NCBI RefSeq assembly: GCF_002797595.1
Contig: NZ_PGFE01000001.1
Span: 1,178,001-1,242,000 of the forward strand
DNA: 64,000 nt
Direction: 5' to 3'
Source of the DNA: Sediminihabitans luteus
GTDB taxonomy: Bacteria; Actinomycetota; Actinomycetes; Actinomycetales; Cellulomonadaceae
Shown: in pieces, positions 1,041-14,318 of the stretch
Numbering within the stretch: position 1 is the stretch's first letter
How the letters are laid out: every line of letters begins with the position of its first letter
The notes under the pieces: model-generated
Databases searched by the model: none
The model's input: only the letters and a program-made list of their open reading frames with translations
What the model was told of the DNA's origin: nothing
Made by a program: the position numbers and the translations under genes

Positions 1041-2411
1041 CGACGCGCGCACCGCCCCGTCGTCCACCGACCGACCATCCACCGGCCCGTCGCCCGCGGA
1101 CCCGGCACCCTCCCGAACCCGCACGCGCGCGACGAGCACGCCCGCCGCGACCGCGAGCACGAGCACGAGCGCGTTGCGCACCGCCGCGAGCACGGTGTCG
1201 AGCGGCACGGCCAGCAGGAACTCGTCGTAGTGGTCGGGGAACAGCCGGTGCGTGAGCAGCGCGACCACGAGCAGGGCGGCCGCGAGCACCGTCCACGTCC
1301 CGGGCCGCAGCACGCGCGACCCGCGCGCCCCCAGCGCCGCGAGCGCGACCGCGACGGGCGGCGCGAACCACGTGACGTACTGCGGCGAGCCGACCTTGTT
1401 GAACGCGACGAGGCACAGCGAGAGCGCGAGCGTCGCCAGGAGCACGAGCTCGAGGTCGGGACCGCGGCGCGCGACGTCGTCCGGCACGGCGCGGCGCAGG
1501 CGCGCGGCCGAGCGCCACGTCGCGAGCGCGACCGCCGCGACGGCCACGAGCAGCAGCGTGTCGAGCGCGGCCGCGGTCGCGTCCGTCCCGGGCCCGGTGA
1601 TCTCGAGGACCTTGAGGGGCGCGTCGAACACGACCGGGAACTCGCCCGACCACAGGCGCGCGAGCGAGAACGGCGTCGCGGCGACTGCCTCGACCTGCAG
1701 GCCGCGGCTGCCCTGGTCGCCGAAGAACGTCAGCACGCGCGCTCCCGCACCGCCGAGCAGCGCGAGCCCGACCACGATGGCCGAGACGAGCGCCGCGGGC
1801 AGCACGACGCGCCGCCACGGCCGGCGCACGACCAGCGCGAGCGGGACGAGGACGGCGCCCGGCGCGACCTTGACCCACGCGGCGCCGGTCGCCAGGGCGC
1901 TCGCGAGGCGCGGCCGGGCGACGGGCGCGAGCTGCGCGAGCGCGATCACGGTCAGCGCGGCGGAGACGCCGTCGAGCCGCGTCAGGGTGATCGGCCCGAG
2001 CGCGAGCAGGAACACGAGCCACCACCAGGCGCCCGTGGTGCGTCCACGGCCCGCGCGCACGAGCGACCCGACCGCGAGTCCGTCGAGCGCCACGACCATC
2101 GCGACGAACAGCACCCGGTACGCCTCGGGGTCGAGCGACCACAGCCCGGGGAGCGTGATCGGCACGAGCGCGCCGACGGGGTACACCCAGCCGGTGTCGA
2201 GCACGGGCCACGTGCCGTCCCGCAGCCCGGCCTCGACCCACGAGCGGTAGAGGTCGACGTCGCCGTCGAGCTGCCCGGGGAACTGCGCGACCTGGTGCAC
2301 GAGCACCGCGTGGACCAGCACGAAGCCGATCCACACCACGGGCAGCCCGCCGAGCGTGCGCGCTGCGCGGGACGACCACGGACCGTCGTGCCGCGCGGGG
2401 GTCTCGATCAC
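996..2411 (-). CDS. GT87-like (DUF2029) polyprenyl-phosphate-dependent mannosyltransferase, membrane protein
   Basis: This 471-residue polytopic membrane protein has about ten hydrophobic segments and the N-terminal pattern of GT-C glycosyltransferases. A first helix (residues about 20-45) is followed by an outside loop with DGDVDLYRSW, where the acidic residues are expected to bind the metal and lipid-phosphate sugar. This family (DUF2029/GT87) adds mannose from polyprenyl-phosphate-mannose to actinobacterial lipoglycans, and that role is inferred here. The C-terminal 40 residues are Asp/Gly-rich, cytoplasmic and lie antisense to the end of the Lrp gene. The ATG at 2411 is the first good start. 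It diverges from the GAF/SpoIIE gene with only 63 bases between starts. Confidence 0.8.
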   Translation of the reverse strand: MIETPARHDGPWSSRAARTLGGLPVVWIGFVLVHAVLVHQVAQFPGQLDGDVDLYRSWVEAGLRDGTWPVLDTGWVYPVGALVPITLPGLWSLDPEAYRVLFVAMVVALDGLAVGSLVRAGRGRTTGAWWWLVFLLALGPITLTRLDGVSAALTVIALAQLAPVARPRLASALATGAAWVKVAPGAVLVPLALVVRRPWRRVVLPAALVSAIVVGLALLGGAGARVLTFFGDQGSRGLQVEAVAATPFSLARLWSGEFPVVFDAPLKVLEITGPGTDATAAALDTLLLVAVAAVALATWRSAARLRRAVPDDVARRGPDLELVLLATLALSLCLVAFNKVGSPQYVTWFAPPVAVALAALGARGSRVLRPGTWTVLAAALLVVALLTHRLFPDHYDEFLLAVPLDTVLAAVRNALVLVLAVAAGVLVARVRVREGAGSAGDGPVDGRSVDDGAVRASSADDGDRDPGGPTT

Positions 2412-2474
2412 GGCGACACCCTACCGATCACGGGCCTGGTCGGAGCACGGCGTCGCGTGGCGGATACTTGCGAC

Positions 2475-4205
2475 GTGCACAACCCTGACGCGCCGTCCCT
2501 CGCCGAGGTCGTCGGCGACATCCACGACGAGTCGTACCAGCGCTACGCCCGCCTCGTGCAGGCGTACATCGGCGCGCCCGTCGCGCTGGTGTCGTTCGTC
2601 GACGACCACGGTCAGGTGTTTCCCGGCGCGATCGGGCTGCCCGAGCCCTGGGCCACGGCGCGCAGCACCCCGCTGTCGCACTCGTTCTGCCAGCACGTCG
2701 TCGCGGCCGACGGGCCACTCGTCGTGTCGGACGCGCGCGAGGTGGACTTCCTGCGCGACAACCTCGCGATCGAGGACCTCGGCGCGATCGCGTACGCGGG
2801 CTTCCCCGTGCGCGACCCCTCGGGCCGGGCGGTCGGCTCGCTGTGCGCGATCGACGGCGAGCCGCGCGTGTGGACCGAGTCGGAGCTCGCCGTGCTCGCC
2901 GACCTCGCGGAGTCGTGCACGACCGAGATCCGGCTGCGCGCCGAGGGCGAGCGCGCCGCGCGCGCCGAGGCCCGCGCGAGCCGCCGCGACGAGCACTCGC
3001 GCGTGCTGCTGCGCTTCTCGGAGCGGTTCGCCGCCGGCCGCACCGTGGTCGACGTGCTCGACGCGGTCCACGAGGTCGCGGAGAGCGTCGCGGGCGCGGT
3101 GCGCTGCGCGGTCGCGCTCGTCGACGGCGAGCAGGTGCGCTGGGCGCGCGCCGAGCCCGTGCCCGGCATGCCCGACGACATGTGGTCGCCCCGCGCCCTC
3201 ACCGAGGTCGAGTGGCCCGGCGTGCGCGCGGTCGCGCACCGCGAGACGTTCCTGTTCGAGGACGCCGACGCGCTCGCCGACGTGTTCCCCGTGATGCGCG
3301 GCATCGGCGGGCCGGGCGCGACCGCGATCGTGCCCGTCTCGACGCGCACCGCGACGCTCGGCGCGGTCGTGCTGCGCTGGGCCGCGCCCCGCACGTTCGA
3401 CACCGACCTCGTGGACCTCCTCGCGGCACTTGCGGGGTACGCGGCGGTCGCGCTCGAGCGCGCGACGCTCATCGAGGGTCAGCAGCGCATCGCGACGGTG
3501 CTCCAGGGCGCGATGCTCGGCACGCTCCCGGCCGTCGCGGACGTCGCGCTCGACGCGGTGTACGCGCCCGCGCTCGAGACCGACCGGGTGGGCGGCGACT
3601 GGTTCGACGTGCTCCCCCACCCGGACGGCTCGCTCGACCTCGTGGTCGGCGACGTCACGGGCCACGACCTGCACGCGGCGACGCTCATGGGTCAGCTCCG
3701 GATCATGCTGCGCACGCTCGCGTGGGAGAACCCGGGGTCCGCGTCCGACGTGCTCGCGCGGCTCGACGCGGTCGCGCTCGGCACCCGCCTCGACGCGACG
3801 GGCACGGTCGTCCTGGTGCGGCTCGGCCCCGCGGGGTCGGACGGCGCGCGCGACGTCCGGTGGTCGTCCGCGGGCCACCTCCCCCCGGTCGTGGTGCGCG
3901 CGGACGGCGTGACGGACCGTGCGTCGTCCGACGCCCCCGACCTGCCGCTGGGTCTGCCGCACGCGCTGCCGCGCACCGAGCGCGCGCTGCGCCTGGCGCC
4001 GGGCGACACGCTCGTGCTGTACACCGACGGGCTGGTCGAGCGTCGTGGGACGTCGCTGCGCGCGAGCGTCGACGAGCTGTTGCGCGTCGCCGCGGTGCAC
4101 GGGGCGGGGCTGCGCGCGGTCGACCTGCTCGAGGCCCTCGCGCCGGGCGGCACGGCCGACGACGACGTCGCGGTGCTCACGGCGACGGTCGGCGCGCCCG
4201 CGTAG
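2475..4205 (+). CDS. GAF domain / SpoIIE-type PP2C serine phosphatase
   Basis: The protein is about 576 residues. A first GAF domain covers residues about 20-165 (typical HSFCQHVV and VSDARE patterns) and a second about 185-335. A SpoIIE-type PP2C domain covers about 350-570, with metal-binding motifs GGDWFDV, VGDVTGHD, LYTDGLVERRG and DDDVAVL all present. Such proteins dephosphorylate an anti-sigma-factor antagonist and so release a stress sigma factor. The GAF domains are the likely sensor, ligand unknown. The open frame continues far upstream, but a GATACT -10-like box at 2463-2468 lies exactly six bases before the GTG at 2475, which points to a leaderless start there. No anti-sigma gene is adjacent. 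Confidence 0.88.
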   Translation: MHNPDAPSLAEVVGDIHDESYQRYARLVQAYIGAPVALVSFVDDHGQVFPGAIGLPEPWATARSTPLSHSFCQHVVAADGPLVVSDAREVDFLRDNLAIEDLGAIAYAGFPVRDPSGRAVGSLCAIDGEPRVWTESELAVLADLAESCTTEIRLRAEGERAARAEARASRRDEHSRVLLRFSERFAAGRTVVDVLDAVHEVAESVAGAVRCAVALVDGEQVRWARAEPVPGMPDDMWSPRALTEVEWPGVRAVAHRETFLFEDADALADVFPVMRGIGGPGATAIVPVSTRTATLGAVVLRWAAPRTFDTDLVDLLAALAGYAAVALERATLIEGQQRIATVLQGAMLGTLPAVADVALDAVYAPALETDRVGGDWFDVLPHPDGSLDLVVGDVTGHDLHAATLMGQLRIMLRTLAWENPGSASDVLARLDAVALGTRLDATGTVVLVRLGPAGSDGARDVRWSSAGHLPPVVVRADGVTDRASSDAPDLPLGLPHALPRTERALRLAPGDTLVLYTDGLVERRGTSLRASVDELLRVAAVHGAGLRAVDLLEALAPGGTADDDVAVLTATVGAPA

Positions 4206-4412
4206 GGCGTCGCTCGCGTCCCGCTCTGCCCGGATCGGGACGAGAGTTCACCGGGGGTTCTCCCGCCGGACGCCCGGGGTACGGATCGCACGGTGAGTAT
4301 CGCAAGACGTCGGCGGTCCTGCCGTTATCGGATCGTGACCTGCGACGGCGTCACCCGCGGGTGCCGCCGACATCTCTAGGACGACGGGGACACGCACGAA
4401 CCAGGAGCACCG

Positions 4413-4601
4413 ATGACCTTGACCACCACGCCGAGCCACGAGCAGGTGCGGCGCGCGCTCATGTGGGCGCTCGCGCACGACCGCGAGACGCTGCTGTGGC
4501 ACCGTCACCAGCGCGCGACCGCCCCGACGAGCGCACTGCGCGCACGGGCCGACGCGGCGATAGTCCAGCGCTGGCTCGAGCGCGACTGCGTGCCCGCCTG
4601 A
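4413..4601 (+). CDS. small hypothetical protein, 62 residues
   Basis: The frame encodes a short, charged, probably helical protein with no membrane segment or signal peptide (MTLTTTPSHEQVRRALM at the start). A clear ribosome site AGGAGC lies seven bases before the ATG, and the gene stands alone in the gap between the phosphatase and the kinase-like gene. I do not recognise the family. The good ribosome site and actinobacterial codon bias support a real gene. Confidence 0.55.
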   Translation: MTLTTTPSHEQVRRALMWALAHDRETLLWHRHQRATAPTSALRARADAAIVQRWLERDCVPA

Positions 4602-5330: not shown

Positions 5331-6653
5331 TCAGGCTCTCACGCGGCTCCCGTGCGCGAGGGGCACGACGACCAGCACGACGACGCCGATCAGGGCGCCG
5401 ATCACGGTGTCCAGGGCGCGGTCGAGCGCGAGGGTCCCGGTCGCGGGCGCCGCGAGCGACGTCATGAGCAGCGCCATGGGCGTGATCGTGAGCATCGCGA
5501 CCCCGTAGTGCCGGCCGACGATCATCTCGGTCACGACCTGCAGCACCACGATCACGGCGATCGCGGCCCAGAACCCGAGGTGCAGCTCGAGCAGCGGCCA
5601 CGCCAGGAGCGCGCCGACGCACGTGCCCGCCGCGCGCTGCAGGCCGCGCACCGCGGCGTGGCGGTGCGAGACCCCCTGCAGGGTCGCGGTCGCGCCGACC
5701 GCCGCCCACACGGGGTGGCCGAAGCCCGCGACCTGCGCGACACCGGCCGCCACGAGCGCCGCGGCGGCCACGCGTGCGGGTGCCTGCCACCAGCCGCCCG
5801 CACGGGCGGCGAGGGCGAGCTGACGTCGCAGCGTGGTCCGGGCGGGCAGCCCGGCGGGCGCGTCCCAGCGCCCGTGCTGGACGCCCGCGGGCGTGAGCGT
5901 CGCCTCGATCACGTCGACCTGGGCGGCGAGCCGCAGGGCCTCGGGGCGCGTGCGCTCGTGCGACGCGTCGTCGGCGAGCACCCGGCGCGCGTGGGCGACC
6001 GTCGCCTGCGCGCGGTCGACGTTCCCGCCGTCGAGCGCGTGCCGCGCCGCATCCCCGGCCCGCCGCACCGCGAGCCGGGCGGGGGCCGTGGGTCGCGCGA
6101 GGTACCCGGCGGTGCACACGACCCAGGCGATCGCGACGCCCACCGCCGCGGCGAGCGCGTGCCGGCCGACGTCCGCGAGGTCGGGGCTGCCGGCCATCCC
6201 GGCGCCCGCGGCGAACACGACGATCGTGGCGCCGGGCGGGCCGAGCCGGGTCATGTCGGCGAACGCGGTGGTCGAGCCCGCGAGGGCCGCGACCACGACG
6301 AGCGTGACCGCGACCGGCGCGCCGAGCGCCGTCGTGAGTCCCGTGAGCGTGATCCCCACCACGAGCACGACACCGACGACGGCCAGCAGGACGGCGCGCC
6401 GCCGGTACGGGTCGTAGCGGCCGTAGACCGAGGCGAGGGCGCCGAGCGCGGCGAAGCCCGCGAGGTCGCGGTGCCCGGTCGCGGCGGCCACGACGAGCGC
6501 GAGCGCGACGGCGAGCCCGCAGCGCAGGGCGGCGGCGACCGTGGCGTCGGCGGGCGTGACGTGCAGCGCCGCGCGCAGCGTCGCGGGGGCGAGGATCTCC
6601 CGCGCCGCGTCGCGGGTCGCGGCGCGGGTGCGCGCCGCAGGAGCGAGGGTCAT
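5331..6653 (-). CDS. FUSC-family membrane transporter (aromatic-acid exporter-like)
   Basis: The 440-residue protein repeats the FUSC pattern: an N-terminal block of five to six membrane segments (about residues 45-190), a charged cytoplasmic middle (about 190-290, RLAVRRAGDAARHAL), then a second membrane block (about 300-440) with HPVWAAVGATATLQG, a signature of this family. FUSC proteins export aromatic acids or related small molecules, substrate unknown here. The gene is divergent from a MarR regulator, 72 bases apart, a common arrangement for a repressor and its efflux target. Confidence 0.82.
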   Translation of the reverse strand: MTLAPAARTRAATRDAAREILAPATLRAALHVTPADATVAAALRCGLAVALALVVAAATGHRDLAGFAALGALASVYGRYDPYRRRAVLLAVVGVVLVVGITLTGLTTALGAPVAVTLVVVAALAGSTTAFADMTRLGPPGATIVVFAAGAGMAGSPDLADVGRHALAAAVGVAIAWVVCTAGYLARPTAPARLAVRRAGDAARHALDGGNVDRAQATVAHARRVLADDASHERTRPEALRLAAQVDVIEATLTPAGVQHGRWDAPAGLPARTTLRRQLALAARAGGWWQAPARVAAAALVAAGVAQVAGFGHPVWAAVGATATLQGVSHRHAAVRGLQRAAGTCVGALLAWPLLELHLGFWAAIAVIVVLQVVTEMIVGRHYGVAMLTITPMALLMTSLAAPATGTLALDRALDTVIGALIGVVVLVVVPLAHGSRVRA

Positions 6654-6725
6654 GCTGCGATCCTACGTGGTACTTCACAGGTAAAACATTCGTGAATCAG
6701 TGATGTCCGTCGCTAGGCTCGGACC

Positions 6726-7232
6726 ATGGACTACGTGGACCGTGTGCGCGCGCAGTGGGCCGAGCGGCTGCCGGCCGTCGACACCTCGCCCGCCGACGTC
6801 GTCGCCCGCATCACCCGGATCGCCGCGCTCGTGACGCAGCAGTCCGAAGTCGCGCTCGCCGACCACGACCTCACGCGCCCCGAGTTCGACGTGCTCGCGA
6901 CCCTGCGTCGCGCAGGACGGCCACTGCGCGCGGGCGAGATCCAGACGCTGCACCAGGCGCCCGGGGCGTCCGTGACCAAGCGCGTCGACCGGCTCGAGCG
7001 TGCGGGCCTCGTCGAGCGGACCGTGCCCGAGCGGGACCGGCGCGGCGTGCTCGTCGCGCTCACCCCCGCCGGCGTCGCGCTCGTCGACGCCCAGTTCCCG
7101 GCGCAGGTCGAGCGCGAGCGCGCGGTGCTCGCCGACCTCGACGCCGACGCCCGGGCCGAGCTCGCCCGCCTGCTCGCGGTGGTGCTGCGCGCGGTCGACG
7201 ACGCGCCGTCGCGCGTAGCGTGGACCGCATGA
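6726..7232 (+). CDS. MarR-family transcriptional regulator
   Basis: The 168-residue winged-helix protein has the MarR order: helical N-terminus, LTRPEFDVLATLRRAGRPLRAGEIQ before the recognition helix (about residues 75-95, APGASVTKRVDRLERAGLVER), and the beta-wing VPERDRRGVLVALTP. A TAGGCT box at 6714-6719 lies six bases before the ATG, so the transcript is probably leaderless. It most likely controls the divergent FUSC exporter and the acetyltransferase that overlaps its stop codon (ATGA). The ligand is unknown. Confidence 0.9.
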   Translation: MDYVDRVRAQWAERLPAVDTSPADVVARITRIAALVTQQSEVALADHDLTRPEFDVLATLRRAGRPLRAGEIQTLHQAPGASVTKRVDRLERAGLVERTVPERDRRGVLVALTPAGVALVDAQFPAQVERERAVLADLDADARAELARLLAVVLRAVDDAPSRVAWTA

Positions 7233-11021: not shown

Positions 11022-11082
11022 GCCGAGCACGGGGTTGGGCACACCCGCGGCACCTGTGCGTGTGCCTAAGCGCGTGCTCGAC
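11022..11082. repeat. hairpin element A1 (23-15-23 bp), convergent gene ends
   Basis: The left arm at 11022-11044 begins GCCGAGCACGGGGTTGGG. The 15-base spacer and a decayed right arm at 11060-11082 give the same 61-bp layout as A2 and A3. A second good partner for the left arm, ACCCCGTGCTCGGC, lies at 11091-11104 inside the ATP-grasp gene. The stop codon of that gene (11066-11068) falls in the decayed right arm. It probably acts as a terminator for the convergent MFS and ATP-grasp genes. Confidence 0.7.
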
Positions 11083-12049
11083 CGCGCTCGACCCCGTGCT
11101 CGGCCGGCGCACGGTCGAGGCGCGCGAGCAGCCCCGCGAGCGCCGCCGTGATGGGCTGCCCGGTCGCGATCTCGACGAACAGCCACTGCCCGGCGGGGTT
11201 GATCTCGAGGAACACGTAGCCGCCGTCGGGCGCGAGCCGCAGGTCGACCGCGCCGTACCGCAGGCCCAGCCGCCGCATCAGCGCGAGCAGCGCGGACTCG
11301 ACGTCGGCGGGCAGCCGGTGCTCGACGATGTGGGGGTCCGGGTCGACCCGGAAGTCGTACTCGTACCCCGTCGACGCGGCGGTGATCCGTGCCGCGAACA
11401 CCTCGTCCCCCACGATCGTGACCCGCACGTCGCCGCCGCCGGGCACGTACTCCTGGAAGATCACCGGCGCGAGCCGGACGAGGTCGAGCCGGTCGAGGTC
11501 GTCGGGGCCAACCGGCCGCGTCTCGCGCCAGGTGCGCGGCGTGCCGCTGAAAGGCTTGTAGATCACGCCCTCGGGTTCGGCGCCGACGAACGCTCGCGCG
11601 CTCGCCGGGTCGTTCGTCATACAGGTGCGCGGCACGCGCAGGCCGATCGACGCCGCGAGGCGCAGCTGCCACATCTTGCGCGACGCCGTCTCGTCGAGGT
11701 CGGGATCGTTGACCCATTCCGCGTCGAGAGTGGTCCACAGCCCGGCCACGAGCGACGCGCACTCGCCGTGCGCGAACCCGCGGTCGTCGCCACCCACGAG
11801 CTCGTCGTGCAGCGTGAAGGGTTGCGGGCGCCGCCACCACATGGCGCGCAGCGCGGCGAGGTCGACGGTTCCGTCAGGCGTCTCCCACGTGCCGGACCAC
11901 CCGCCCTGCGGCGTCTGGCGCGTGGTCAGCGACGCGCTGCTCGGCACCGTGGCGGTGTCGAGCAGCACGTGCCGGGCGCCTGCGGCGTCGAGGTGCCGGC
12001 GCACCGCGACCGCGTGCAGGTCGTCGGCGTGGGAGACGATCCCGATCAC
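11066..12049 (-). CDS. graspetide-type ATP-grasp ligase (MvdC/MvdD-like) coupled to a protease
   Basis: The 327-residue protein is an ATP-grasp enzyme of the peptide-maturase type. An N-terminal lobe includes MWWRRPQPF near residue 70. SRKMWQLRLAASIGLRVPRT at about 123-142 is the segment typical of graspetide ligases. Lys165 (YKPFSGT) should contact ATP, FQEYV at about 198-202 forms the adenine hinge, and Asp269, Glu282 and Asn284 (LEINPAGQW) bind magnesium. Known relatives form ester or amide links between side chains of a ribosomal peptide. The GTG at 12049 overlaps the protease stop (GTGA), so the two are made together. No small precursor gene is visible next to it. The last residues are encoded by hairpin element A1. 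Confidence 0.85.
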   Translation of the reverse strand: MIGIVSHADDLHAVAVRRHLDAAGARHVLLDTATVPSSASLTTRQTPQGGWSGTWETPDGTVDLAALRAMWWRRPQPFTLHDELVGGDDRGFAHGECASLVAGLWTTLDAEWVNDPDLDETASRKMWQLRLAASIGLRVPRTCMTNDPASARAFVGAEPEGVIYKPFSGTPRTWRETRPVGPDDLDRLDLVRLAPVIFQEYVPGGGDVRVTIVGDEVFAARITAASTGYEYDFRVDPDPHIVEHRLPADVESALLALMRRLGLRYGAVDLRLAPDGGYVFLEINPAGQWLFVEIATGQPITAALAGLLARLDRAPAEHGVERGRARA

Positions 12050-13551
12050 GCCTCCTCCTCGAACATCGCCGCGAGCGCGGCGCGCAGGGTCGTGAGCGAG
12101 GCCGTGACGGACTGCTGCGCCACGAGCAACGCGTCGAGCTCGGCGAGCACCTGGTCGGCGAGCGTGCCGTCGCCGGGCGCCCCGACGTCGGCGTGCTCGC
12201 CCGCCTGCACGAACGGTCGCACGGTCGCCCCGAGGAACCCGGCGAGCCCCCCGCGGACGACGGGGTCGAGCACCGGGTCGAAGACCTTGCCCGGGTCGAA
12301 GACGCCCTCCTGGAGGGTGTTGTTCGGGTCGTCCCCTGCCCCGACGGTGCCGAGGTCGCCCGCGAGCTTGGTCGTGAGGTCGCCCGAGAGCACGGTGCCT
12401 CGCACGTCGCGGGCGAGCGGCGTCCCGATCTGGTCGCTCACGAGCGTCGTGTCCCGGCCGAGCCCGGTGCCGACGTCGTCGAGGGTCGCCAGGGTGAATC
12501 CGCCGTGGTCGCGCAGGAACGCGGTGTCGATCCGGTCGGCGGCCGCGTGGGTCGCGAGGACGTCGTCCGAGATCCGGGTCGCGAACGGCCGGTCGGCCGC
12601 GGAGGCCGTGCTCGAGCTGGGCGTGAGCGACCGCAGCGTCGGCGAGGCTGCGACGATCGCCGCGATCGCGACGCCGGTGTTGCTGCCCGTCCCGGCGCTG
12701 TTGCAGCCGCCGTTGGTGTGGACGCCGACGACGCGCCCGGTCGCCGCGTGCAGGATCCCGGAACCCGAGTTGCCGCCCAGGGTGTCGATGTCGTTGTAGG
12801 AGACCACCGTGCCCGTGACGCCGGTCGCCGGTCCGGCCTCGATGCGCTTGGGCTGGCCCGCGGGGTGCCCGATGATCGCGAGCATGTCGCCCACGGCGGG
12901 GTTGGTGGTGCCGAACTCGGTCCACCCGTACGTGCTGCCCGGGCTGCCCCCGATGCGGCACAGCGCCATGTCGAGGCCGCCGAGCCGGTACTCGACCAGC
13001 GCCACGATCGGGAAGCTCTGCTCGGCGCGCATCGCGCCTGACGGGTCGCGCTGGTACAGGAAGTTGAGGTGCATCGACGTCGCCGCCTGCTGGGGCGTGA
13101 TCGCCGTGACGGTGCCGTTCTGGCGGGGGATGCGCCACCCGTTGGGGTCGGCGTCGAACAGGTGGCCGCAGGTGAGGAACAGGTCGGGGCCGATCATGGT
13201 CCCGCTGCCCCAGCGCACCCCGCTCACGTTGCCGGGGTCGGTGTACGTGCTCGCGAGGTTCGCGTTCCAGGCGACCTGCGCGACGGGCTGCTCGTGGGCC
13301 GCGACGAAGGCGGCGGTCACGCCGAGCGTGCCGTCGTACTGCTCGACCTCCTGCGAGTCGTCCACGACGCCGCAGATCGACTCCATGAGCTCGGAGTAGC
13401 CGGGCCCGGCGCCTTCGAGCGCGTCGGCGCCCAGGTCGAGCTGGTCGAGGCGCGGCACGAACAGCGCGTCGTCGAGGTGGGCGAACGGAGCCTTCTTGGG
13501 GCTGCGCGCCCGGGCGCGCTTGGGCGAGCTGGTGGATCCGGTGGTGGGCAT
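12046..13551 (-). CDS. cytoplasmic trypsin-like serine protease with a repetitive C-terminal tail
   Basis: The 501-residue protein has no signal peptide. Residues about 55-100 carry a conserved N-terminal region (EQYDGTLGVTAAFV). A chymotrypsin-fold domain has a full triad: His130 (LTCGH), Asp194 (GGLDMAL) and Ser262 (GGNSGSG). After residue 305 comes a Thr/Asp-rich tail with loose 15-16-residue repeats (about 325-407, for example TTLVSDQIGTPLARD), then a helical end finishing in EEEA. The downstream overlapping gene is an ATP-grasp ligase, so the tail is a possible substrate. It sits divergent from the ArsR-like regulator. The target of proteolysis is unknown. Confidence 0.85.
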   Translation of the reverse strand: MPTTGSTSSPKRARARSPKKAPFAHLDDALFVPRLDQLDLGADALEGAGPGYSELMESICGVVDDSQEVEQYDGTLGVTAAFVAAHEQPVAQVAWNANLASTYTDPGNVSGVRWGSGTMIGPDLFLTCGHLFDADPNGWRIPRQNGTVTAITPQQAATSMHLNFLYQRDPSGAMRAEQSFPIVALVEYRLGGLDMALCRIGGSPGSTYGWTEFGTTNPAVGDMLAIIGHPAGQPKRIEAGPATGVTGTVVSYNDIDTLGGNSGSGILHAATGRVVGVHTNGGCNSAGTGSNTGVAIAAIVAASPTLRSLTPSSSTASAADRPFATRISDDVLATHAAADRIDTAFLRDHGGFTLATLDDVGTGLGRDTTLVSDQIGTPLARDVRGTVLSGDLTTKLAGDLGTVGAGDDPNNTLQEGVFDPGKVFDPVLDPVVRGGLAGFLGATVRPFVQAGEHADVGAPGDGTLADQVLAELDALLVAQQSVTASLTTLRAALAAMFEEEA

Positions 13552-13637: not shown

Positions 13638-13675
13638 GATCATCAAGACCTCTTGATCAAGAGGTCTTGATGATC
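13638..13675. promoter_or_regulatory. perfect 38-bp palindrome, double operator for the ArsR-like regulator
   Basis: The segment is identical to its own reverse complement over all 38 bases. Inside it are two adjacent 14-bp dyads, TCAAGACCTCTTGA (13643-13656) and TCAAGAGGTCTTGA (13657-13670). The palindrome ends 13 bases before the regulator ATG. It is far richer in A/T than its surroundings. Two dimers of the regulator could bind side by side. Autoregulation and control of the downstream pump are inferred. Confidence 0.85.
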
Positions 13676-13688
13676 TATCGTCGGTCGC

Positions 13689-14318
13689 ATGAGCAGCCCC
13701 GAGCAGCACCACGAAGTCACGGGCGACGGCACCCTCACCGATGACGTCACCTCGGACCCCGCGCGCATCCGCGCCCTCGCGCACCCCCTGCGCCTGACGC
13801 TGCTCGAGCTCCTCGACACCGAGCGCGAGGCCACCGCGACCCGCTGCGCCGAGCTCACGGGCGAGTCCGTCGCGAGCTGCTCGTTCCACCTGCACCAGCT
13901 CGTGCGGTACGGGTACGTCGAGCGCGCCGAGCCGCGCGGTCGCGAGAAGCCGTTCCGCACGGTGAGCCGTTCGCGCGCGAGCCGGTTCGACCCGGCCGTG
14001 CCCGACTCGCGCCGCGCCTCGGCCGAGCTCGCGCACCTGCTGCTCGACCGCGAGACCGCCCGCGTTCACGCCTGGCTCGACGCCGCGACCCGCGCCGGCG
14101 GATCGACCCGGGCGGACGACGCGTGGGCCCTCGCCTCGACGCAGACCTCCGCCACGTTCTGGGCCACGCAGGACGAGCTCGCCGCACTCTCGGCCGAGGT
14201 CAACGCGCTGGTCGACCGGTTCGCCGACCGCCACGACCCGGCCCGGCGCCCCGCCGACGCCCGGCGCGCGCACCTGTTCGCGGTCGTCAACGCCGACGTC
14301 CCGGGAGACCCGCGATGA
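13689..14318 (+). CDS. ArsR-like winged-helix transcriptional regulator
   Basis: The 209-residue protein has an ArsR/HTH_20 domain at about residues 22-100. It starts DPARIRALAHPLRLTLLELL, and the recognition helix is near SVASCSFHLHQLVRYGYVERA. A helical C-terminal half of unknown fold follows. There are no clustered cysteines typical of metal sensors, so a small organic ligand or another signal is more likely. It starts just after the 38-bp palindrome, and its stop overlaps the start of the MFS transporter (ATGA), which suggests a repressor with its pump. Confidence 0.88.
   Translation: MSSPEQHHEVTGDGTLTDDVTSDPARIRALAHPLRLTLLELLDTEREATATRCAELTGESVASCSFHLHQLVRYGYVERAEPRGREKPFRTVSRSRASRFDPAVPDSRRASAELAHLLLDRETARVHAWLDAATRAGGSTRADDAWALASTQTSATFWATQDELAALSAEVNALVDRFADRHDPARRPADARRAHLFAVVNADVPGDPR

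Follow-up and report, generated by a model that had tools for sequence, protein, structure and literature searches.

What does a graspetide-synthetase-like ATP-grasp ligase modify when it is coupled to a protease gene and no precursor peptide is encoded beside it? This question is raised by two genes of Sediminihabitans luteus located in a 64,000-nucleotide stretch of contig NZ_PGFE01000001.1 (positions 1,178,001 to 1,242,000; hereafter the window, in which position 1 is the first letter). A first-pass annotation of the window had placed a trypsin-like protease and the ligase at 11066-13551 with a GTGA overlap between them; these coordinates are correct and the overlap is present, with the protease (13551 to 12046) and the ligase (12049 to 11066) both on the minus strand. 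The same annotation had suggested that the ligase acts on the protease itself or on a distant target, and our analysis supports the protease as the most likely target. We consider it quite probable that the protease is a fused precursor whose tail is crosslinked by the coupled ligase through a PF motif located behind the core. The elements that point to this, a T-x4-D repeat and an RPF motif in the C-terminal 190 residues of the protease, had been overlooked. The features of the pair are the following:

12046..13551, minus strand: trypsin-like serine protease, the proposed carrier with a C-terminal substrate tail (ATG start, 501 amino acids)
12721..13209, minus strand: Trypsin_2 domain (residues 115-277, triad H130/D194/S262)
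12331..12609, minus strand: candidate crosslinking core of 11 T-x4-D units (residues 315-407, disorder predicted)
12211..12219, minus strand: RPF, putative recognition motif C-terminal to the core (residues 445-447)
12052..12165, minus strand: C-terminal helix of the protease (residues 463-500, AlphaFold)
12046..12049, minus strand: GTGA, overlap of 4 bases between the protease stop and the ligase start
11066..12049, minus strand: graspetide-synthetase-like ATP-grasp ligase (GTG start, 327 amino acids)

The ligase is an MvdC/MvdD-type ATP-grasp synthetase of the graspetide kind. It matches the Pfam MvdD pre-ATP-grasp domain (31.4 bits, cut-off 27), scores 166 and 165 bits with the NCBIfam MvdC and MvdD models, and contains both the NPAGQW and the RKMWQLRLA motifs reported in the annotation. 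When a profile of eight ligase relatives was compared with the Protein Data Bank, the matches were MdnB (5ig8, 2.5e-59), AMdnB (7m4s, 2.3e-58) and MdnC (5ig9, 3.2e-57), followed by the further synthetases 9bou, 7mgv and 7drm (3.5e-33), with the RimK-type protein 5zct far behind (7.6e-9). Likewise, a Foldseek search with the model of a close relative ranked MdnC, PruB, CdnC, AMdnB, MdnB and PsnB ahead of RimK. Residues D269, E282 and N284, which we take to be active-site residues, are invariant in an 8-row alignment.

The protease belongs to the Pfam Trypsin_2 family (57.4 bits, cut-off 27.6), and its nearest structure by Foldseek is the glutamyl endopeptidase 1p3c (E 7.9e-11). As annotated, the catalytic triad is complete, with H130 in LTCGH, D194 in GGLDMA and S262 in GGNSGSG; the alignment of the protease with 24 relatives shows no substitution of D194 or S262 and at least 90% conservation of H130. 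No signal peptide was seen by eye in the window protein, in agreement with the annotation. The last 190 residues are non-catalytic. AlphaFold, run with the 25-row alignment, predicts a folded body from about residue 26 to 311 and a helix at 463-500, separated by a disordered stretch (312-462) with a predicted local distance difference test (pLDDT) score below 50. This stretch holds the 11 T-x4-D units, a number reached in 0 of 10,000 shuffles (mean 2.15). The Thr and Asp columns of the tail recur among the 24 relatives and the intervening residues and the number of units vary; two of these relatives, L037 and L038, differ by 8 residues in the repeat region. In the RPF motif, P446 and F447 are invariant and R445 is at least 90% conserved in the 25 rows, and P446 and F447 are at least 90% conserved across the 78 upstream proteins of all kinds described below, which we call carriers. 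The layout is not that of a separate short precursor peptide with an N-terminal leader, because the core (315-407) sits inside a 501-amino-acid protease and the motif (445-447) stands after it.

The annotation had proposed co-occurrence in other genomes as a check on the pair, and the two genes do occur together. Among 99 related genomes, the ligase search matched 15 and the protease search 5, and both genes adjoin in four of these five (the window, G050, G028 and G008). The fifth, G069, has on a contig of 3.4 kb a protein of 36% identity (L024, 724-3162), in which the His and Ser regions are changed and the C-terminus is different and repeat-like. The protease search of a class sample of genomes matched 1 of 394, namely the window's own genome. 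Genome contigs were also scanned with the ligase alignment, with ligase similarity as the sole selection; 185 relatives were found and the best 80 were kept. Ligase relatives belong to Actinomycetota, Proteobacteria, Acidobacteria, Planctomycetes, Chloroflexi, Verrucomicrobia and other phyla. The upstream gene was readable at 77 loci, a set that excludes L073 and L094 (carrier cut by the contig end, locus beginning at the ligase) and L047 (an in-frame protease-ligase fusion); L047 and L051 were judged to be the same contigs as in two other searched genomes. A PF-motif tail was found on the upstream protein in 76 of the 77 (the pattern recognised 73, and inspection by eye added L079, L083 and L106), most commonly as PF(V/A/I)L(A/S)TPHH, and the single exception, L100, carries a diverged SFLTSTGHQ. 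Because the choice of the upstream frame favoured the motif, this choice was checked separately: the motif is absent from all 227 rival candidate frames, persists in 65 of 77 loci when the longest upstream frame alone is taken, and has a background of 32 in 2,213 other open reading frames (ORFs) of 150 amino acids or more. Relative to the start of the ligase, the carrier stop falls at -150 to +3, and at 20 of the 77 loci the two genes share 4 bases.

No shared small precursor gene was found among the 5,336 short ORFs compared around 78 loci, and no conserved precursor gene was found around the pairs in relatives, which the annotation had named as an outcome that would speak against its proposal. 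Its description of the pair as lacking a precursor nevertheless needs correction: the precursor-like sequence is the protease's own C-terminal tail. That protease-linked ligases have no separate precursor would follow if the tail were itself the substrate. Recurrence in at least 3 genera was seen for only two of these short genes, one lipocalin-like (at 6 loci with M43 carriers) and one YscW-like (at 7 loci with astacin carriers). The former lies upstream of the M43 carriers at L071, L075, L077, L091, L092 and L109, did not reach the Pfam cut-off in the single copy scanned, and could encode a peptidase inhibitor. In 11 of 81 loci the YscW-like cluster occurs on the 3' side of the ligase (representative PF09619, 5.3e-13); the clusters at the window pair do not include it. 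At L047 (4840-6933, equal to L022 10760-12853), protease tail and ligase form one open frame from which the protease C-terminal helix and the first ligase residues are missing, either as a natural fusion or as an assembly artefact of a metagenome-assembled genome.

The carriers are not all trypsin-like. Pfam assigned the 78 carriers (window included) to Astacin (29), Trypsin_2 (22), Trypsin (5), M43 (11), S8 (3) and tyrosinase (2), where Trypsin and Trypsin_2 may overlap; by motif they comprise 29 astacins, 25 trypsin-type proteins, 11 M43, 3 S8 and 10 others. The latter include, by eye, two tyrosinases (L057 and L069) and five small beta-rich proteins (L064, L074, L076, L083 and L095). L060 was called trypsin by its GxSG motif alone, and L106 and the N-terminus of L080 remained unclassified; L084 resembles the truncated end of an astacin carrier. 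The NCBIfam name LegP is given to 29 of the 78 carriers, and we use it as a label only. With the first Met taken as start codon, the N-terminal part of all 77 related carriers lacks the hydrophobic stretch required for a signal peptide (12 residues with a mean hydropathy of at least 1.8), and their first 30 residues are rich in Lys (0.078 versus 0.013 in the body). Because the carriers span unrelated enzyme classes, the combination of core, motif and ligase has the appearance of a module that is indifferent to the enzyme.

We also analyzed the composition and spacing of the 78 tails. Since the motif served to locate the tails, all of them contain it by design (in L100 a different PF was taken). 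Relative to the remaining carrier sequence, the 110 residues that precede the motif are enriched in Lys (3.2-fold), Asp (1.7-fold) and Pro (1.7-fold) and poor in Cys (0.12-fold). Candidate acceptors (T/S/K) precede candidate donors (D/E) at a spacing of +5 in 608 cases versus 216 in shuffles. For T to D/E at +5 the numbers are 282 versus 94, and for K to D/E they are 247 at +4 and 281 at +5 versus 83. Because such pooled counts are inflated by related sequences, each tail was tested singly: 58 of the 78 are individually periodic (p<0.01), versus 0 of 78 windows from the enzyme parts and 0 of 81 ligase windows. In a quick tree of 107 ligases (3 loci with ligase fragments, L137, L140 and L142, were left out), the window ligase falls within a starred 16-row set of trypsin-type loci. 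A single change separates the 82 carrier-type ligases from the 25 others, on a dividing branch without support. On this tree (76 rows), at least 8 changes of carrier class are required, which indicates that related ligases have exchanged their partner enzymes. Near the M43 group, in an unclear branching order, are the tyrosinases, an S8 and the astacin L065 with TLKFRDD-like tails.

As a control, we examined peptidases of the same families in 396 genomes of the phylum. M43 peptidases occur at 13 places in 12 genomes. The only one that adjoins a ligase, in G550, is also the only one with a long tail (289 residues past HExxH), which contains PFVLATPHH; the other 12 end about 76-107 residues past HExxH, and both the tail and an adjacent ligase are absent. 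The astacin search of these genomes gave 1 match (L116), without a PF tail and in a genome that is not ligase-positive, too few to count. Ligase relatives were detected in 27 of the 396 genomes, with 5 candidates scored per genome. Reading of 30 ligase loci from this sample gave 2 with a PF-tailed carrier (window and G550), 16 in which neither type was recognised, and 12 whose short upstream ORF has a PF or PW motif ahead of a Thr/Asp-rich end (L123, L126-L134, L144 and L146), for example MQPFALNYARP...TTTSTAGSKTHFDD and YSRPWVLRFARV...THTPTVPDGS. Ligase relatives were also present in 23 plasmid records, and the five that were opened comprise one M43-like carrier with a PF tail (B. stagnalis, L162), one conventional tgmA-tgmB pair, and three without such a carrier. 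In the plasmid tgmA the motif again comes first (TRPWVLRFARTPD ahead of the core). Hence, the 12 short ORFs and this tgmA show that conventional precursors are arranged motif-then-core, whereas the carriers described here are arranged core-then-motif.

Altogether, the carrier would be ordered as enzyme domain, disordered repeat core, PF recognition motif and helix. We propose that the ligase binds RPF, which would serve as a 'follower' instead of a leader because it is positioned after the core, and phosphorylates the Asp side chains of the core with ATP (Asp/Glu in related carriers). The activated side chains would then be joined to nearby Thr (Thr and Lys in related carriers), so that the window protease may gain up to about 11 Thr-Asp omega-ester rings, and the TLKFRDD-type tails of relatives Lys-Asp amides too. 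The product would be a working enzyme with a chain of small macrocycles. Chances appear even that this represents a multi-phylum tail-stapling module, composed of repeats, PF follower and ligase, on unrelated enzymes that lack signal peptides (mostly peptidases, also tyrosinases), and that the strings of macrocycles serve as a functional part of the enzyme and not as a released natural product. Because unrelated enzymes bear similar cores and the same motif, we tentatively propose that the role of the crosslinked tail is independent of the enzyme, perhaps as a rigid protease-resistant tether or as an anchoring or delivery element. A contractile injection route for the window protein was tried with one family, Phage_sheath_1, which has no match in the window genome, and was not retained.

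Several observations weigh against the proposal that the tail is the substrate of the ligase. The best NCBIfam model for the ligase is TIGR04187 (GRASP_SAV_5884), at 256 bits and below its cut-off of 350. Twenty of the 78 tails are not significantly periodic, including those of four of the five small beta carriers, of L048, of three Streptomyces astacins and of L106, which has the motif without a clear core. The M43 control hangs on a single positive. Tail type, scored in four crude classes, requires 14 changes on the ligase tree, more than carrier class does, and this scoring therefore does not favour a close co-evolution of tail type and ligase. In an AlphaFold model of the L047 fusion (5719-6933), the tail has pLDDT below 50 and the motif is undocked; because tail rows were missing from the alignment and the first residues from the ligase, this model is uninformative about docking. 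Finally, graspetide precursors described in the accessible literature are stand-alone peptides with the motif ahead of the core.

Known graspetide systems (microviridin, fuscimiditide and corallotide; synthetases MdnB/C, AMdnB, CdnC, PsnB, ThfB and CorB) resemble the loci described here in ligase family and fold, in Thr/Lys acceptors and Asp/Glu donors, and in a PF-containing recognition motif. They differ in that here the core is fused to a folded enzyme, the motif follows the core, and the substrate would be a protein of about 500 amino acids. Carter et al. 2026 (PMC13097080) describe a Lys-Asp link, shown by nuclear magnetic resonance, in the K-x3-D repeats of the large corallotide precursor, whose synthetase is of the TIGR04187 type; K-x3-D repeats are also found in the tails of related carriers. 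RPFG, of which the window's RPF matches the first three residues, is the key recognition tetrapeptide of ThfA for the synthetase ThfB, and ThfB modifies the core even when the leader is moved to the C-terminal side, as Johnson et al. 2026 report (PMC13003496). This ThfA 'follower' is like our carriers in that a core is followed by an RPF element and modified by an ATP-grasp synthetase, but it is a laboratory construct, whereas the arrangement here would be natural and present in several phyla. Protein cyclisation by ThfB is described by Choi et al. 2025 (PMC12291112). No enzyme-fused graspetide precursor was found in the titles and abstract openings of the literature matches listed, with most subscription papers and all supplements out of reach.

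An alternative is that the carriers are self-releasing precursors, in which the peptidase domain cuts the crosslinked tail in cis and frees one or several macrocyclic peptides. Known graspetides are released peptides, and the motifs identify four kinds of peptidase among the carriers, 68 of 78 in total, as would be expected if any leader peptidase can serve. Moreover, in the accessible text of PMC13097080, group 32 synthetases are found beside diverse proteases and over half of those of group 9 beside a serine proteinase, and these neighbours are read as possible maturation or resistance proteins. By this description both groups are like the present loci in having synthetases beside proteases and differ in that their proteases stand beside predicted precursors. 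Self-release does not account for the tyrosinases and small non-peptidase carriers with the same motif, and the order of core and motif would leave the peptide joined to the C-terminal helix, so that two cuts are needed. To a lesser degree, it is also disfavoured by the lack of an identified exporter in the 4 of 20 recurrent neighbour clusters that were scanned. We therefore regard self-release as unlikely.

The annotation had speculated that crosslinking may keep the protease inactive or arm it. A related possibility is that the crosslinked tail fills the active site of the protease that bears it, much as free graspetides inhibit serine proteases, and that its removal or hydrolysis then arms the enzyme. 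Characterised graspetides are described as protease inhibitors by Makarova et al. 2022 (PMC8939145), and the window carrier is a serine protease with Thr/Asp units. The speculation finds no support in the other carriers: metallopeptidases, subtilases and tyrosinases bear similar tails, which speaks against an inhibitor tailored to a serine protease, and at some astacin and M43 loci the separate small neighbours (YscW-like and lipocalin-like) are equally likely inhibitors. Autoinhibition is thus distinctly improbable, and the variety of carriers is better suited by a tail that acts as an enzyme-independent appendage.

The survey of Makarova et al. also bears on the novelty of the pair, which the annotation did not know as a described system. 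In its accessible text, branches 7 and 8 of the synthetases adjoin peptidases from several unrelated families, a precursor is not detectable for either, and branch 7 often includes a YscW homologue, so that ligases beside unrelated peptidases are already known as a precursor-less group. The feature we regard as new is the enzyme-fused core with a C-terminal recognition motif. By the published description, as distinct from the supplementary tables, the present loci match branch 7 in that ligases are coupled to several unrelated peptidase families and a separate precursor is absent. The survey proposes that the precursors of both branches are encoded elsewhere, with the peptidase supplying or processing them, and the absence of a small precursor gene near the pair is in line with this published inference. 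Such a distant precursor seems highly improbable to us, since it leaves unexplained both the PF-motif tail, mostly with acceptor/donor repeats, on upstream proteins of any class and the absence of the tail in ligase-less M43 peptidases; where the survey places the precursor elsewhere, we read it as the peptidase tail. That the tail is an ordinary low-complexity spacer or a charged single helix unrelated to the ligase is hardly credible: the window tail is disordered in AlphaFold and charged helices are conceivable for KE-rich tails (for example in L032), but Pro-rich and T/D tails are unlikely to form them, acceptor-donor spacing is fixed while intervening residues vary, and motif and ligase co-occur.

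If peptidase tails are indeed the substrates, the precursor question of the two branches in the survey becomes testable. Graspetide chemistry would then reach from small peptides to natural enzymes, the C-terminal recognition layout of the engineered construct would exist in nature, and the loci would yield candidate synthetases for Thr-Asp and Lys-Asp protein stapling.

A genome of the window's genus encodes an M6 peptidase (L032, 9999-13337, minus strand) with KE repeats and VPVPFIGADLRP, followed by two ATP-grasp genes. L032 looks like branch 8 of Makarova et al., which suggests that the principle may extend further. Upstream of ATP-grasp genes at L034 and L035 we observed apparently stand-alone repeat proteins, with SSE repeats and with KD/KE repeats and APFPDDDP, respectively, which are possible unfused relatives of the tails. 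Beside the protease-ligase pair of L052, a gene (2217-4499) encodes Trypsin_2 and DNA/RNA non-specific endonuclease domains (scanned in L052), and related ORFs are present at L050, L055 and L066.

In the window, a perfect 38-bp palindrome (13638-13675) lies between the protease start and a divergent gene (13689-14318) that by eye resembles an ArsR-type regulator. A regulatory link of this palindrome to the pair was discarded because, with start codons assumed, it was not found upstream of 18 trypsin-type relatives. Other long palindromes are present upstream in L045 and L048.

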